In this document: in pieces, positions 5,585 through 52,771 of the stretch | How positions within the stretch are numbered: the first letter of the stretch is position 1 | How the letters are laid out: every line of letters begins with the position of its first letter | Source of the DNA: Arenicola marina | Taxonomy: Eukaryota; Annelida; Polychaeta; Arenicolidae | Direction of reading: 5' to 3' | NCBI GenBank assembly: GCA_964019135.1 | Contig: OZ025258.1 | Location: 4,731,961 to 4,795,960 of the forward strand | Length of the DNA stretch: 64,000 nt | Notes under the pieces: model-generated | Told to the model about the DNA's origin: nothing | What the model saw: only the letters and a program-made list of their open reading frames with translations | Databases searched by the model: none | Made by a program: the position numbers and the translations under genes

Positions 5585-6650
5585 ACACATCAGCCTTTTA
5601 AATATGTATACAAGGCAGCAGTTGAACGTTGGGTGGAATTTTAATACCGGTCCGTATTTCCACACAACAAATGGAGTAAAGTAGGGGGCAGTATTGTCTC
5701 CTATCTTGTTCGGTGTTTATATAGACGAGTTGCTGCAACGGTTAAAGAGATCTGGATACGGCTGCACTATTGGTCATATGTACTGCGGTGCGTTTGGTTA
5801 TACAGACGACGTAAGTCTCCTCGCGCCTACACTGTATGCTCTAGAACAAATGTGTAACGTGTGTACAGAGTTTGCAAAAGAATTTTATCTTACGTTTAAC
5901 CCTTTGAAATGCAAACATCAATTTTAGTGTCAATAACGTAGAATTTTACTTCAACAATGAGCTTGTCAAAACGGTGAAAAGTGATATGCATCTCGGTCAC
6001 ACTATTGGCCCAAACGTCTCTGGCGACGTCATACGTCAGGCGTCTTACGACCTAACGCGCCGTACGAATGATGTATTAGCTAATTACGGGGTGTGCAACT
6101 TATTTGTGGTTTATCAACTTTTTAAGTCATACTGTAATACTTTCTACGGATGCCACTTATGGAATCTAGATGCCAGAGACATATCCCATTGTTTTACCAC
6201 ATGGAGGGTGTGCATGAGGAAAATTTGTTAGTTACCAGCACGCACTCACGGTAAACTAATTCCTGTCATAGCCGAGTGTCTTTCAGTCGCAGACCAGATT
6301 GCCATCCGCACTATTCGCTCACGGAGCACACAACAGTGCCAATAGCACCCTACGATTTCTTTGAAAAATCGCTGCTAGTGGTGGCGCGTCAACTTTTTCA
6401 TCTAACATAAGGCATATTTTAGCAACCTATAAGCTGTCTCTTAATCATATCATGTCTGACGCCAATCATATGAAGAGAACTTTATGGGGCTTTTGCCCAA
6501 ACTATTTTATACGAGCGAGACTTTTGTCACGGTGCTACGTCAACTGACGACATTTACTGTATACATAATTTTATCTGTACTACTTGAATACGTCGCTTTT
6601 TGACACTTATACGTATGAACTCACTGTGTACATGCTTTTATGCTACGTAG
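5585..6650 (+). pseudogene. non-LTR retrotransposon (LINE) reverse transcriptase, decayed 3-prime part
   Basis: The translation shows the middle and end of a LINE reverse transcriptase. It starts with a MYTRQQLNVGWN segment (5606 on), then TTNGVK and a stop where the NGV-x-QGxxLSP motif is expected (TAG near 5679). LSPILFGVYIDEL follows, then the catalytic loop FGYTDDV (YADD-type, Ala to Thr) near 5805-5822. A one-base frameshift occurs near 5918. The frame continues as NNVEFYFNNELVKTVKSDMH with the thumb-like LGHTIGP (5998 on). Another stop lies near 6229, with a further frameshift near 6410, and C-terminal sequence such as IRHILATYKLSLNHIMSD follows. The element is non-functional. Its left end coincides with the end of the 30-bp array, so the endonuclease half and the first RT motifs are missing. 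RT identity is firm; the clade is not assigned. Confidence 0.88.
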
Positions 6651-14865: not shown

Positions 14866-16307
14866 GATCGCCATGTATAGCCAAGTCCTAATCATGACGC
14901 CATGTATAGCCAAGTCCTAATCATGACGCCATGTATAGCCAAGTCCTAGTGATGACGCCATGTATAGCCAAGTCCTAATGATGACGCCATGTATAGACAA
15001 GTCCTAATGATGACGCCATGTATAGACAAGTCCTAATGATGACGCCATGTATAGACAAATCCTATTGATGACGCCATGTATAGACAAGTCCTAATGATGA
15101 CGCCATGTATAGACAAGTCTTAATGATGACGCCATGTATAGACAAGTCCTAATGATGACGCCATGTATAGACAAGTCCTAATGATGACGCCATGTATAGA
15201 CAAGTCCTAATGATGACGCCATGTATAGCCAAGTCCTAATCATTACGCCATGTATAGACAAGTCCTAATGATGACGCCATGTATAGACAAGTCCTAATGA
15301 TGACGCCATGTATAGACAAATCCTAATGATGACGCCATGTATAGCCAAGTCCTAATGATGACGCCATGTATAGACAAGTCCTAATCATTACGCCATGTAT
15401 AGACAAGTCCTAATGATGACGCCATGTATAGACAAGTCCTAATGATGACGCCATGTATAGACAAGTCCTAATGATGACGCCATGTAGACAAGTCCTAATG
15501 ATGACGCCATGTATAGACAAGTCCTAATGATGACGCCATGTATAGACAAGTCCTAATGATGACGCCATGTATAGACAAGTCCTAATGATGACGCCATGTA
15601 TAGCCAAGTCCTAATGATGACGCCATGTATAGACAAGTCCTAATGATGACGCCATGTATAGCCAAGTCCTAATCATTACGCCATGTATAGACAAGTCCTA
15701 ATGATGACGCCATGTATAGACAAGTCCTAATGATGACGCCATGTATAGCCAAGTCCTAATGATGACGCCATGTATAGCCAAGTCCTAATGATGACGCCAT
15801 CTAGACAAGTCCTAATGATGACGACATGTATAGACAAGTCCTAATGATGACGCCATGTATAGCCAAGTCCTAATCATTACGCCATGTATAGACAAGTCCT
15901 AATGATGACGCCATGTATAGACAAGTCCTAATGATGACGCCATGTATAGACAAGTCCTAATGATGACGCCATGTATAGCCAAGTCCTAATGATGACGCCA
16001 TGTATGGACAAGTCCTAATGATGACGCCATGTATAGCCAATTCCTAATCATTACGCCATGTATAGACAAGTCCTAATGATGACGCCATGTATAGCCAAGT
16101 CCTAATGATGACGCCATGTATAGACAAGTCCTAATGATGACGCCATGTATAGCCAAGTCCTAATGATGACGCCATGTATAGCCAAGTCCTAATGATGACG
16201 CCATGTATAGCCAAGTCCTAGTCATTACGCCATGTATAGCCAAGTCCTAATGATGACGCCATGTATAGCCAAGTCCTAATGATGACGCCATGTATAGACA
16301 AGTCCTA
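14866..16307. repeat. 29-bp satellite array, about 50 copies
   Basis: The unit is GACGCCATGTATAGACAAGT followed by CCTAATGAT. The main variants are GACAAG/GCCAAG and AATGATGAC/AATCATTAC. Small deletions occur near 15481 and 15799. The array ends 58 bp beyond the stop codon of the minus-strand VWD gene, so it occupies that gene's 3-prime flank or 3-prime UTR. Confidence 0.96.
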
Positions 16308-16364
16308 ACCATGGCGACATGTATCGTAGCTATGACGTCAATTGTATCCGATCGCTGTGGACGG

Positions 16365-45600: not shown

Positions 45601-45779
45601 TGGTCGGGGGACCTAGCGAATGGGCCACAGGAACGGTGTGGATACCGCACTGAGTGGCGGCAGGTTGGTCGGGGGACCTAGCGAATGGGCCACAGGAACG
45701 GTGTGGATACCGCACTGAGTGGTGGCAGATTGGTCGCGGGACCTAGCGAATGGGCCACGGGAACGGTGTGGATACCGCA
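27696..45779. repeat. 65-bp satellite array (with a few 51-bp units)
   Basis: The unit is GTGGCGGCAGGTTGGTCGGG, GGACCTAGCGAATGGGCCAC, GGGAACGGTGTGGATACCGC, ACTGA. There are about 275 copies. Common variants are GACCTAG/GACATAG, CCACGGG/CCACAGG, ACCGCAC/ACCCCAC and GAGTGG/GAGTCG. Short 51-bp units occur as clusters near 31330-31480, 35450-35600, 42425-42520 and 42785-42985. Block duplication is visible: 31289-31804 matches 35407-35922 at an offset of 4,118 bp (61 x 65 + 3 x 51), and 36027-36442 matches 36937-37352 at 910 bp (14 x 65), sharing the private variant GGGGAACCTAG. Confidence 0.98.
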
Positions 45780-48299
45780 CTGAGTGGCGTTCTATAGTTA
45801 ATGGGCCACGGGAACGGTGTGGATACTGCACTGAGTGGCGGTCTATAGTTAATGGGCCACAGGAACGGTGTGGATACCGCACTGAGTGGCGTTCTATAGT
45901 GAATGGGCCACGGGAACGGTGTGGATACCGCACTGAGTAGCGGTCTATGGTTAATGGGCCACGGGAACGGTGTGTATACCGCACTGAGTGGCTGTCGATA
46001 GTTAATGGGCCACGGGAACGGTGTGGATACCGCACTGAGTGGCGGTCTATGGTTAATGGGCCACGGGAACGGTGTGGATACCGCACTGAGTGGCGGTCTA
46101 TGGTTAATGGGCCACGGGAACGGTGTGGATACCGCACTGAGTGGCGGTCTATAGTTAATGGGCCACGGGAACGGTGTGGATACCGCACTGAGTGGCGGTC
46201 TATGGTTAATGGGCCACGGGAACGGTGTGGATACCGCACTGAGTGGCGGTCTATAGTTAATGGGCCACGGGAACGGTGTGGATACCGCACTGAGTGGCGG
46301 TCTATAGTTAATGGGCCACGGGAACGGTGTGGATACTGCACTGAGTGGCGGTCTGTAGTTAATGGGCCACAGGAACGGTGTGGATACCGCACTGAGTGGC
46401 GTTCTATAGTTAATGGGCCACGGGAACGGTGTGGATACCGCACTGAGTGGCGTTCTATAGTTAATGGGCCACGGGAACGGTGTGGATACCGCACTGAGTG
46501 GCGGTCTATAGTTAATGGGCCACGGGAACGGTGTGGATACTGCACTGAGTGGCGGTCTATAGTTAATGGGCCACAGGAACGGTGTGGATACCGCACTGAG
46601 TGGCGTTCTATAGTTAATGGGCCACGGGAACGGTGTGGATACCGCACTGAGTGGCGGTCTATAGTTAATGGGCCACGGGAACGGTGTGGATACCGCACTG
46701 AGTGGCGGTCTATAGTTAATGGGCCACGGGAACGGTGTGGATACTGCACTGAGTGGCGGTCTGTAGTTAATGGGCCACAGGAACGGTGTGGATACCGCAC
46801 TGAGTGGCGTTCTATAGTTAATGGGCCACGGGAACGGTGTGGATACCGCACTGAGTGGCGTTCTATAGTTAATGGGCCACGGGAACGGTGTGGATACCGC
46901 ACTGAGTGGCGGTCTATAGTTAATGGGCCACGGGAACGGTGTGGATACCGCACTGAGTGGCGGTCTATAGTTAATGGGCCACGGGAACGGTGTGGATACC
47001 GCACTGAGTGGCGGTCTATAGTTAATGGGCCACGGGAACCCTGTGGATACCGCACTGAGTGGCGTTCTATAGTTAATGGGCCACGGGAACGGTGTGGATA
47101 CCGCACTGAGTGGCGGTCTATAGTTAATGGGCCACGGGAACGGTGTGGATACCGCACTGAGTGGCGGTCTATAGTTAATGGGCCACGGGAACGGTGTGGA
47201 TACTGCACTGAGTGGCGGTCTGTAGTTAATGGGCCACAGGAACGGTGTGGATACCGCACTGAGTGGCGTTCTATAGTTAATGGGCCACGGGAACGGTGTG
47301 GATACCGCACTGAGTGGCGTTCTATAGTTAATGGGCCACGGGAACGGTGTGGATACCGCACTGAGTGGCGTTCTATAGTTAATGGGCCACAGGAACGGTG
47401 TGGATACCGCACTGAGTGGCGGTCTATAGTTAATGGGCCACGGGAACGGTGTGGATACCGCACTGAGTGGCGGTCTATAGTTAATGGGCCACGGGAACGG
47501 TGTGGATACTGCACTGAGTGGCGGTCTATAGTTAATGGGCCACAGGAACGGTGTGGATACCGCACTGAGTGGCGTTCTATAGTTAATGGGCCACGGGAAC
47601 GGTGTGGATACCGCACTGAGTGGCGTTCTATAGTTAATGGGCCACGGGAACGGTGTGGATACCGCACTGAGTGGCGGTCTATAGTTAATGGGCCACGGGA
47701 ACGGTGTGGATACCGCACTGAGTGGCGGTCTATAGTTAATGGGCCACGGGAACCCTGTGGATACCGCACTGAGTGGCGGTCTATAGTTAATGGGCCACGG
47801 GAACGGTGTGGATACCGCACTGAGTGGCGTTCTATAGTTAATGGGCCACGGGAACGGTGTGGATACCGCACTGAGTGGCGGTCTATAGTTAATGGGCCAC
47901 GGGAACGGTGTGGATACCGCACTGAGTGGCGGTCTATAGTTAATGGGCCACGGGAACGGTGTGGATACTGCACTGAGTGGCGGTCTGTAGTTAATGGGCC
48001 ACAGGAACGGTGTGGATACCGCACTGAGTGGCGTTCTATAGTTAATGGGCCACGGGAACGGTGTGGATACCGCACTGAGTGGCGTTCTATAGTTAATGGG
48101 CCACGGGAACGGTGTGGATACCGCACTGAGTGGCGGTCTATAGTTAATGGGCCACGGGAACGGTGTGGATACCGCACTGAGTGGCGGTCTATAGTTAATG
48201 GGCCACGGGAACGGTGTGGATACTGCACTGAGTGGCGGTCTATAGTTAATGGGCCACAGGAACGGTGTGGATACCGCACTGAGTGGCGTTCTATAGTTA
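45780..48299. repeat. 51-bp satellite array, about 49 copies
   Basis: Same family as the 65-bp array, but the 24-bp segment CAGGTTGG...CTAGCGA is replaced by the 10-bp TCTATAGTTA (or TCTATGGTTA); the 41-bp remainder is shared. The variant GATACTGCAC recurs at spacings that are multiples of 51 (204, 204, 459, 306, 459, 255 bp), showing higher-order structure. Since 51 is divisible by 3, several frames stay open for over 780 codons on both strands. These are not considered genes. Confidence 0.97.
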
Positions 48300-49245
48300 C
48301 ATCTTAATTGTTGGGCAACGCAAGCAATCAGTCTTCCGGCAGAGGGCGTTCCGATTAAGCTACAGCCCCTCTGCTCCACGTCAGATTTAACCATCAGAAG
48401 TACACGAAAATTGGAAATGAATCTAAGAGATATATTCGCAATTTGGCATCAAATACGTAACTGTTTATCAGTTACTGTGCTACTGTGGTACAGCACCGGA
48501 CGCATTCATTCGATGTGGAGTAATTAGAAGCCAAGTTAATTTCGAAATATGGTCTGAACTTCGATCGAGGTCAAAGGCGTGAAGCGCTTTGAATTTTGAC
48601 CCCGTGTTATTGAAATATGCATCGACAATACAAAATTTAACCTAAACAACCCTCTAAAACGATTCGTTACCTCAGTCCTGTCGAGGTCAACCGTGAGGAA
48701 CGAGCTCCCTCTGCTGGCAGAGTGGCAAGGAATATCACTTCTCACACTAGCTTGGCGGTGTCCATGCGTGACGTCACGTCCGAGACAAACCCACTCCGCT
48801 CTCGGCGACTGGCTACTTCTAAATGCGACTTGTAACCCCTCGAGCGGAAAATTATTAATCTCCTAGAGTACTTGTGCTGAGATAAAACAACACTTGAACC
48901 AATGCCATCTGCATATTATCTGGTACCGTTGTTTTTCCAGTACCTGAGTTAGTTAACCAGTTAGTGGTAACATGACAACATTCGATCTTGTCAACTTCGA
49001 GGATTCGTTTTTCCTGAGAAGTTGAGCGTATGACCGCTAACTGCGCGGCGTCGTACCATTGCCAGAGAACCCCATAGGGGTGCCAATGCTAACTGGTACA
49101 CCATTGGCTGGCAGCACTAATCACAACACTGACAGACCAGGAATGGCGCACCGGGCCATAGGACATGAAATGAAATTACATGGTGCTTTAGGCCATTTAT
49201 GTGTACACAAGGGCTATATGAATGACGGTGAAGGGTGAATGGATG
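48300..49245. other. unique spacer, no gene recognised
   Basis: Unique DNA between the large satellite and the 45-bp array, with a CTCF-like site 37 bp beyond the satellite edge (48336-48348). A near match reads CCAGCAGAGGGAG on minus near 48708-48722. No exon was recognised. Confidence 0.55.
48336..48348 (+). promoter_or_regulatory. CTCF-like motif (CCGGCAGAGGGCG)
   Basis: CCGGCAGAGGGCG differs from the CCASYAGRKGGCR core at one position. It sits 37 bp beyond the end of the 20.6-kb satellite. Motif match only. Confidence 0.4.
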
Positions 49246-49877
49246 AAGCATGCCCAGATGGGGTCCCCGGCCCGGATTGGGGCTAACACGAAGTATGCCC
49301 AGATGGGGTCCCCGGCCCGGATTGGGGCTAACACAAAGCATACCCAGATAAGGTCCCCGGCCCGGATTGGGGCTAACACAACGCATGCCCAGATAAGGTC
49401 CCCGGCCCGGATTGGGGCTAACACAAAGCATGCCCAGATAAGGTCCCCGGCCCGGATTGGGGCTAACACAAAGCATGCCCAGATAAGGTCCCCGGCCCGG
49501 ATTGGGGCTAACACAAAGCATGCCCAGATAAGGTCCCCGGCCAGTATTGGGGCTAACACAAAGCATGCCCAGATAAGGTCCCCGGCCCGGATTGGGGCTA
49601 ACACAAAGCATGCCCAGATAAGGTCCCCGGCCCGGATTGGGGCTAACACAACGCATGCCCAGATGAGATCCCCGGCCAGGATTGGGGCTAACACAAAGCA
49701 TGCCCAGATGAGATCCGCGGCCAGGATTGGGGCTAACACAAAGCATGCCCAGATGAGATCCCCGGCCAGGATTGGGGCTAACACAAAGCATGCCCAGATG
49801 AGATCCCCGGCCAGGATTGGGGCTAACACAAAGCATGCCCAGATGAGATCCCCGGCCAGGATTGGGGCAAACATGAA
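49246..49877. repeat. 45-bp array, 14 copies in three homogeneous blocks
   Basis: The unit is GCATGCCCAGATAAGGTCCC, CGGCCCGGATTGGGGCTAAC, ACAAA. The first two copies have ATGGGGTCC, the next seven ATAAGGTCC, and the last five ATGAGATCC with GGCCAGG. It lies 118 bp downstream of the Ly6-family stop codon and could be in its 3-prime UTR. Confidence 0.95.
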
Positions 49878-49995: not shown

Positions 49996-50258
49996 TCAGT
50001 GCGTCACTCCAGGTCTGGCTGTCACCAGCACAAAGATGGCGGCCACCACGACGGCGGCCAGGGACGAGTTGGCTGTGGCGCCGGCCTGGTTGCAGTTGTT
50101 GGTGTTACAGAGACAGAGCTTGTTGAAGATGTTGTGGACGTTCTCGAAGCTGGTCCTCTTCTGGCAGTGCTCCATGGTCCTGTTGCGGTGGCGGTCGTGG
50201 GTCGGCAGGGTATCAATCTCGTCCTGCGTAGCGCAGCGCCGTATGATCACCTGCAGCC
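49996..50258 (-). CDS. Ly6/uPAR-type GPI-anchored protein, last exon
   Basis: The acceptor is GGTTGCAG (AG at 50259-50260). The phase-1 junction joins to the exon at 52583-52771. The translation reads LQVIIRRCATQDEIDTL, a sequon NRT, EHCQKR, KLCLCNTNNCNQ and then AGATANSSLAAVVVAAIFVL with a short polar tail and TGA at 49996-49998. C-x-C-x4-C-N closes the ten-cysteine Ly6/uPAR (three-finger fold) pattern. The small residues followed by a hydrophobic tail form a classic GPI-attachment signal, so the protein is expected on the outer face of the plasma membrane. Members of this family act as receptor ligands, channel chaperones or adhesion proteins; the role here is unknown. Confidence 0.87.
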
Positions 50259-50654
50259 CTGCAACCCACCACCAACACTGACAGTACAACACAGAACGGG
50301 CTTCTAAAGCAGCGTGTCGAGCTTTCCCCACCAACTCGAAGCCCAGGCGACATATATATCACAATTTGCAGAAAACTCGATTGTTTCATTCTATAAATTC
50401 AGATACCTAATAAACATCGCCGTTTCGGCTGTGATAAGAGCTCAAAGTAACTGGTGACCTACGTGTCCCATCACTACCCCCCACCAGTGGTTTGTCACAG
50501 AATCTCTGCGTGGGGGGGGGGGGGCGAATCCCCCTATTCTAACCTAAGACGCTCCTAAAATTGTAATCAGTTGGACAGGTAAACTATCGAAATTCGAAAC
50601 CCTATGAAGTATTTGATTCCGCTATATACTTACTTGACAGGGATTTCATTGTCT
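50259..50654 (-). other. 3-prime part of the last intron
   Basis: Unique intron sequence between the acceptor of the last exon and the splice-donor minisatellite, with a G12 run near 50511-50523. Confidence 0.7.
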
Positions 50655-52600
50655 GACCCCCAGACCGCCCCCCCACCCTCTGGCACTCTGTGCGGTACTC
50701 ACGCTGTCTGACGGTGTGGCCCCCCCCACCCTCTGGCACTCTGTGCGGTACTCACGCTGTCTGACGGTGTGGCCCCCCCCCACCCTCTGGCACTCTGTGC
50801 GGTACTCACGCTGTCTGACGGTGTGGCCCCCCCCACCCTCTGGCACTCTGTGCGGTACTCACGCTGTCTGACGGTGTGCCCCCCCCCCACCCTCTGGCAC
50901 TCTGTGCGGTACTCACGCTGTCTGACGGTGTGCCCCCCCCACCCTCTGGCACTCTGTGCGGTACTCACGCTGTCTGACGGTGTGGCCCCCCCCCACCCTC
51001 TGGCACTCTGTGCGGTACTCACGCTGTCTGACGGTGTGGCCCCCCCCACCCTCTGGCACTCTGTGCGGTACTCACGCTGTCTGACGGTGTGCCCCCCCCC
51101 CACCCTCTGGCACTCTGTGCGGTACTCACGCTGTCTGACGGTGTGGCCCCCCCCCACCCTCTGGCACTCTGTGCGGTACTCACGCTGTCTGACGGTGTGG
51201 CCCCCCCCCACCCTCTGGCACTCTGTGCTGTACTCACGCTGTCTGACGGTGTGGCCCCCCCCCCACCCTCTGGCACTCTGTGCGGTACTCACGCTGTCTG
51301 ACGGTGTGGCCCCCCCCCCCACCCTCTGGCACTCTGTGCGGTACTCACGCTGTCTGACGGTGTGGCCCCCCCCCACCCTCTGGCACTCTGTGCGGTACTC
51401 ACGCTGTCTGACGGTGTGGCCCCCCCACCCTCTGGCACTCTGTGCGGTACTCACGCTGTCTGACGGTGTGGCCCCCCCCCACCCTCTGGCACTCTGTGCG
51501 GTACTCACGCTGTCTGACGGTGTGCCCCCCCCCCCACCCTCTGGCACTCTGTGCGGTACTCACGCTGTCTGACGGTGTGGCCCCCCCCCCCACCCTCTGG
51601 CACTCTGTGCGGTACTCACGCTGTCTGACGGTGTGGCCCCCCCCACCCTCTGGCACTCTGTGCGGTACTCACGCTGTCTGACGGTGTGGCTCCCCCCCCA
51701 CCCTCTGGCACTCTGTGCGGTACTCACGCTGTCTGACGGTGTGGCCCCCCTACCCTCTGGCACTCTGTGCGGTACTCACGCTGTCTGACGGTGTGCCCCC
51801 CCCCCATCCTCTGGCACTCTGTGCGGTACTCATGCTGTCTGACGGTGTGCCCCCCCCCCACCCTCTGGCACTCTGTGCGGTACTCACGCTGTCTGACGGT
51901 GTGGCCCCCCCCCACCCTCTGGCACTCTGTGCGGTACTCACGCTGTCTGACGGTGTGGCCCCCCCCACCCTCTGGCACTCTGTGCGGTACTCACGCTGTC
52001 TGACGGTGTGGCCCCCTCCACCCTCTGGCACTCTGTGCGGTACTCACGCTGTCTGACGGTGTGGCCCCGCCCCCACCCTCTGGCACTCTGTGCGGTACTC
52101 ACGCTGTCTGACGGTGTGGCCCCCCCCCACCCTCTGGCACTCTGTGCGGTACTCACGCTGTCTGACGGTGTGGCCCCCCCCACCCTCTGGCACTCTGTGC
52201 GGTACTCACGCTGTCTGACGGTGTGGCCCCCCCACCCTCTGGCACTCTGTGCGGTACTCACGCTGTCTGACGGTGTGGCCCCCCCCCCACCCTCTGGCAC
52301 TCTGTGCGGTACTCACGCTGTCTGACGGTGTGGCCCCCCCCCACCCTCTGGCACTCTGTGCGGTACTCACGCTGTCTGACGGTGTGGCCCCCCCCACCCT
52401 CTGGCACTCTGTGCGGTACTCACGCTGTCTGACGGTGTGCCCCCCCCACCCTCTGGCACTCTGTGCGGTACTCACGCTGTCTGACGGTGTGGCCCCCCCC
52501 CCACCCTCTGGCACTCTGTGCGGTACTCACGCTGTCTGACGGTGTGGCCCCCCCACCCTCTGGCACTCTGTGCGGTACTCACGCTGTCTGACGGTGTGGC
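50655..52600 (-). repeat. minisatellite (about 53-55 bp, about 36 copies) containing an exon end plus 5-prime splice site
   Basis: In the gene sense (minus) each unit reads GGCCACACCGTCAGACAGC, then GTGAGTACCGCACAGAGTGC, then CAGAGG and a G-run of variable length. The first 19 nt are identical to the last 19 nt of the Ly6 exon at 52583-52771; the next part is the start of its intron, including donor GTGAGT. Unit length varies only in the G-run. All but one of the copies read by eye keep GTGAGT; the copy at 51828-51833 reads ATGAGT. The frame that continues the exon is stop-free in units whose length preserves it; another frame has TGA. The array abuts the exon directly. Confidence 0.95.
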
Positions 52601-52771
52601 CGAAGGGACGATACTTGTAGTCGATCTTGGTGCAGTACCCGAGACTGCAGGGCACGGCAAGAGGCTTCTTCTGTCCGGCCTCAAGGAGATCCCACTCCTG
52701 ACGGCAGAGATTGGAACTAGCGAGGTCCTGGGAGGTGTTCCGGGAGTCGCAGTTGTAGCACCAGACGCCCC
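52583..52771 (-). CDS. Ly6/uPAR-type GPI-anchored protein, main Ly6 exon
   Basis: This is a 189-bp, phase 1-1 exon. The acceptor is CTCCCACCAG (AG at 52772-52773) and the nearest donor is CAGACAGC followed by GTGAGT (52577-52582). The translation reads GVWCYNCDSRNTSQDLASSN, LCRQEWDLLEAGQKK, PCSLGYCTKIDYKYRPFGH and TVRQ. It starts the Ly6 domain with C-x2-C near the N-terminus and contains five of the ten cysteines plus a sequon NTS. Its last 19 nt are repeated about 36 times downstream together with the donor, so use of a more distal donor would lengthen the exon by multiples of about 54 nt, inserting HTVRQREYRTECQRVGG-like peptides. The acceptor coincides with a CTCF-like match. Confidence 0.88.

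Follow-up and report, generated by a model that had tools for sequence, protein, structure and literature searches.

When the 3' end of an exon has been copied dozens of times together with its splice donor, which of the copies is joined to the next exon? This question is raised by a Ly6/Quiver-like gene on the minus strand of a 64,000-nucleotide stretch of Arenicola marina DNA (here called the window; contig OZ025258.1, positions 4,731,961 to 4,795,960), in which a minisatellite of 36 copies crosses the end of an exon. The array is probably a minisatellite of the mirage type, named in work on amphioxus genes, and splicing probably takes place at its first copy. An origin by slippage, use of the first donor and decay of the transcripts made from the others would best explain the observed anatomy of the array, its reading frames and the protein domain.

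Tandem arrays in the window were located with Tandem Repeats Finder (TRF), and the units of this array were read and tabulated on the minus strand. TRF reported a single array at 50668-52601 (period 54, 36.0 copies, 96% matches, score 3568) with its onset inside the 3' end of an exon, exon A, in agreement with an earlier sequence-only reading that had described about 36 copies at the end of a Ly6 exon. Each unit consists of the exon end, CACACCGTCAGACAGC, followed across the exon-intron boundary by GTGAGTACCGCACAGAGTGCCAGAG, with the donor inside a 25-nt intron core, and then by a G-rich stretch that differs in length between units, its longest G-run ranging from 5 to 11. The last 16 nt of the exon are present in all 36 copies and the last 19 nt, claimed earlier for every unit, are exact in 28; the remaining eight mismatch at one of the first three of these 19 positions. 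The intronic part measures 33-37 nt per unit, donor included (spacing of 52-56 nt minus 19), and not a donor plus about 15-20 nt as had been estimated. The 35 donor-to-donor spacings comprise 52 nt six times, 53 nt eight times, 54 nt thirteen times, 55 nt six times and 56 nt twice, so that all three frame classes are represented (13, 12 and 10).

The donor GTGAGT is found in 35 of the 36 copies, the exception being copy 15 (51828-51833), which reads ATGAGT, just where the sequence-only reading had placed it. A transcript of the exon would carry 35 identical GTGAGT sites, as expected from the dozens of nearly equal donors proposed there. A comparison on both strands of 18 consensus units, chosen from the window's 52 overlapping TRF rows by removing short and duplicate ones, found GTRAG(T/G) in the unit of this array only. 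Of the 42 GTRAGT sites on the window's minus strand, 35 lie in this array; the plus strand has three. A reading of the units as G-quadruplexes was dropped, since the canonical motif lies inside a single unit in only 3 of the 36.

Exon A (52583-52771, minus strand, 189 nt, phase 1 on both sides) encodes the first half of a QVR (Quiver, u-PAR/Ly6-like) domain, and its acceptor is placed before 52771 as the AG and the frame suggest. The second half of the domain lies in exon B (49996-50258, minus strand, to the stop codon) together with a hydrophobic C-terminus that appears similar to a glycosylphosphatidylinositol (GPI) signal. The two exons are compatible in phase 1 and open throughout. When they were joined in silico at the first donor, the product scored 30.8 bits against Pfam QVR (cut-off 27.3), whereas exon A alone reached 15.7 bits and exon B alone 17.1. 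The exon is therefore supported independently of the array, because the joined exons exceed the cut-off and neither does so by itself. The exact 3' boundary of the intron is less certain than the donor, since the frame is also kept with acceptors that give exon B starts at 50300, 50303 and 50321, and the tract before the 50258 acceptor is only 45% pyrimidine. Some 120 nt beyond exon B's stop codon a 45-bp array of 14 copies (49246-49873) sets in, possibly within the 3' untranslated region or the flank.

The reading frames single out donor 1 (AGC/GTGAGT, the slash marking the boundary; 52577-52582, minus strand) as the only one of the 36 donors with which the C-terminal half of the protein is retained. 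Because unit 1 measures 52 nt, donors 2-36 shift the frame. In 1,260 pairs, formed by the 36 donors and the 35 AG sites between donor 36 and a point 60 nt inside exon B, the C-terminal cysteine motif was kept with donor 1 only; a complete protein was obtained with none of the 35 later donors, whether joined to the 50258 acceptor or to any of the 35 AG sites. With donor 2 the stop is reached in exon B, and from donor 3 onward it is the TGA within the second copy's own GTGAGT. Every later donor of this haplotype thus yields a truncated protein, with 81 or 95 aa of the modelled part, and the QVR scores stay below the cut-off (17.4 bits for the donor-2 product, 16.6 for the product common to the later donors). 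An unrelated donor-like site just past the array, CAA/GTAAGT (50629-50634, minus strand, first base 50634), would give the same 81-aa product. The frame result limits what the array can encode here. Most of the functional proposals of the sequence-only reading are not supported: length-variable exons with in-frame repeats were accordingly rejected for this haplotype, and the suggestion that either the first or the last copy is reliably used is favoured by the frames for the first, donors 2-36 all losing the C-terminal half.

How donor 1 could be chosen among so many equals is suggested by the surroundings of the exon. The intron after donor 1 is 2,324 nt long, and a rough search through 11 kb of upstream sequence gave no convincing first exon; together these suggest exon definition at exon A. 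The spliceosome would then link the acceptor of exon A to donor 1, the closest on the other side of the exon, and the 2.3-kb intron, once removed, would take the other 35 copies with it. A transcript spliced at a later donor would include the 52-nt first unit and run out of frame into a stop codon; it would encode a truncated protein and probably be degraded. Carranza et al. 2022 (PMC9225289) describe a preference for the upstream donor where nearly equal donors are flanked by long introns, and in their tests five human exon-definition minigenes, each with a pair of identical strong donors, were spliced only at the upstream member. Splicing between copies was considered and rejected, as the AG sites inside the array lack a pyrimidine tract (the best of 253 has 50% pyrimidine); the argument is a weak one, the 50258 acceptor with its 45% being no better.

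Several observations weigh against splicing at the first copy. The frame argument was made on a single haplotype, and it hinges on the lengths of G-runs, which may be wrong in an assembly. When the real units were placed in shuffled order, 2,371 of 5,000 orders (47%) likewise gave no extra usable donor, with a mean of 1.06 extra; the frame result is therefore not evidence of selection, and the fact that only donor 1 works was rejected as a sign of it. On its exon side the donor reads AGC, which departs from the consensus, and its calculated U1 pairing is -9.8 kcal/mol vs -14.1 for CAG/GTGAGT; some exon skipping is therefore possible. These energies are a rough guide only, because the duplex calculation is not anchored at the GT and favours G-rich sites, and U1 pairing was rejected as a ranking of sites since those such as AGGGTGGGGGG outscore the array donor. 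In the same human study (PMC9225289), upstream donors prevailed in just 60% of nearly equal pairs genome-wide, the preference was reversed when no strength filter was applied, with about 60% for the downstream donor, and weakening of the twin donors caused larger exons to be mostly skipped. Human IFI6, moreover, is described as using repeats further down as donors (PMC4526556, citing Turri et al. 1995).

That last case is the model for the alternative that survives best, namely that the first few donors are used alternatively, with a shift between full-length and truncated protein and an output set by the G-run length of the first units. It is consistent with the identity of the 35 donors over the 6-nt intronic side, with the G-run variation among units and with spacings in all three frame classes, but all later donors truncate the protein in this haplotype and the upstream twin alone was used in the five minigenes, and we consider it unlikely. 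Quite improbable is a gene that has died or is hardly expressed, in which the array would be harmless junk. In a large protein database no homologous protein was found (17 candidates, none at E 0.001; in a second search 10 candidates, none at E 10), and the missing first exon points in the same direction, a candidate at 63635-63488 from the upstream scan being weak and not accepted. On the other hand, the two exons match in phase, remain open throughout and exceed the QVR cut-off, which argues against a dead gene. An assembly artefact, in the array or its copy number, is very improbable: assembly is difficult for near-perfect repeats and long G-runs, the amphioxus BflGb6 genome draft was judged aberrantly assembled (PMC3087553) and two assemblies of the lancelet PGBD5 gene disagree on copy number (PMC3902484), but here the array has unique sequence on both sides, its copies differ from one another in their variants and in G-run length, and for PGBD5 a re-examination of Sanger data together with new Illumina data bore out the sequence and its arrays (PMC3902484).

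A bolder reading, to which we give an equally slight chance, would make the array a tunable splicing switch, in which altered G-run lengths, or deletion of unit 1 alone or with unit 2, determine whether splicing at later donors inserts an 18-aa repeat in frame into the Ly6-like domain or truncates the product. If this were true, mutation of the minisatellite, even somatic, would alter the protein between individuals or cells. The locus is a natural test of donor choice by the spliceosome where about 35 sites are identical, and the reading frame reports its mistakes.

Tandem arrays of many unrelated units cover 80.6% of the window (51,596 of 64,000 bases; merged TRF rows), and an array that touches an exon therefore needs no special cause. 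The minisatellite would have grown across the exon's 3' end, probably by slippage or unequal exchange at the G-rich stretch. In the intron just past the array, at 50647-50666 on the minus strand, 12 of 20 positions, aligned in register with the array, match the exon end, including the 8-nt GTCAGACA; an in-register run of 8 nt is expected by chance with a frequency of about 0.0006 (20,000 single-base shuffles). The first duplication was possibly seeded by this short direct repeat; alternatively, the stretch may be what remains of a last copy. The 41-nt core of the unit shows two substitutions in 1,476 sites over the 36 copies, one of them in a donor, and the copies are recent or homogenised. 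The donor was not seen to be more conserved than the rest of the core; because the unit core as a whole is nearly invariant, the sameness of the donors says nothing on selection or function, and selection on the donor cannot be inferred.

Elsewhere in the window, the longest tandem stretch is a 20.6-kb compound array with units of 65 and 51 bp (27697-48299). Open frames of 786-888 aa are found on both strands at 45613-48394, mostly inside the 51-bp array, and are probably not genes, because the 51-bp unit is a multiple of three. On the minus strand, an exon at 16368-16760 matches Pfam VWD at 25.6 bits (cut-off 22.9) and encodes the last part of a von Willebrand factor type D domain; near its 3' side a 29-bp array sets in (14869-16324). 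A reverse-transcriptase fragment (5685-5924, plus strand; RVT_1, 38.7 bits) adjoins the first array of the window. Rfam and tRNA scans of the window gave no matches, and a Protein Data Bank (PDB) search returned two, both with E > 1.

The sequence-only reading had known of no described array of this kind. A report of this particular locus was not found in the literature, searched without a species name, but amphioxus mirages (PMC3087553, PMC3902484) and human IFI6 precede it. Ebner et al. 2010 (PMC3087553) report minisatellite-like tandem duplications of exon-intron boundaries in the amphioxus globin genes BflGb6 and BflGb9, under a name that goes back to Canestro et al. 2002 on Adh3, as cited there. 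Splice signals are included in many mirage copies. By the same account, units measure 10-72 bp in Adh3 and 150-160 bp in the globins, and the length of the globin mirages varies between haplotypes. Similar arrays are described in lancelet PGBD5, with others cited in Adh and troponin C (PMC3902484), and in both sources regular splicing is reported as undisturbed in the globin and Adh3 cases. In these accounts mirages are so far reported from cephalochordates.

As in mirages, the unit of the Arenicola array spans an exon-intron boundary with its splice signal, and its 52-56 nt fall inside the reported range of 10 to about 160 bp. Unlike them, it is present in 36 near-identical copies, vs the 2-7 given for the globins and PGBD5, and the gene is Ly6/Quiver-like. 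The minisatellite of human IFI6 (6-16) starts near the end of an exon and has 26 copies of a short, 12-nt unit. Its repeat units, too, carry splice donors in tandem, and two downstream units are stated to act as such (PMC4526556, citing Turri et al. 1995). The extra donors of IFI6 encode isoforms, whereas here the units are 52-56 nt long, later donors break the frame and, as predicted from the frames, none of the 35 would keep the C-terminal half. Because mirages and IFI6 have already been described, the array is not a new kind and opens no new class of element; it is a large example of an already described kind, and it adds to the case that minisatellites at exon boundaries can expand without breaking the gene.
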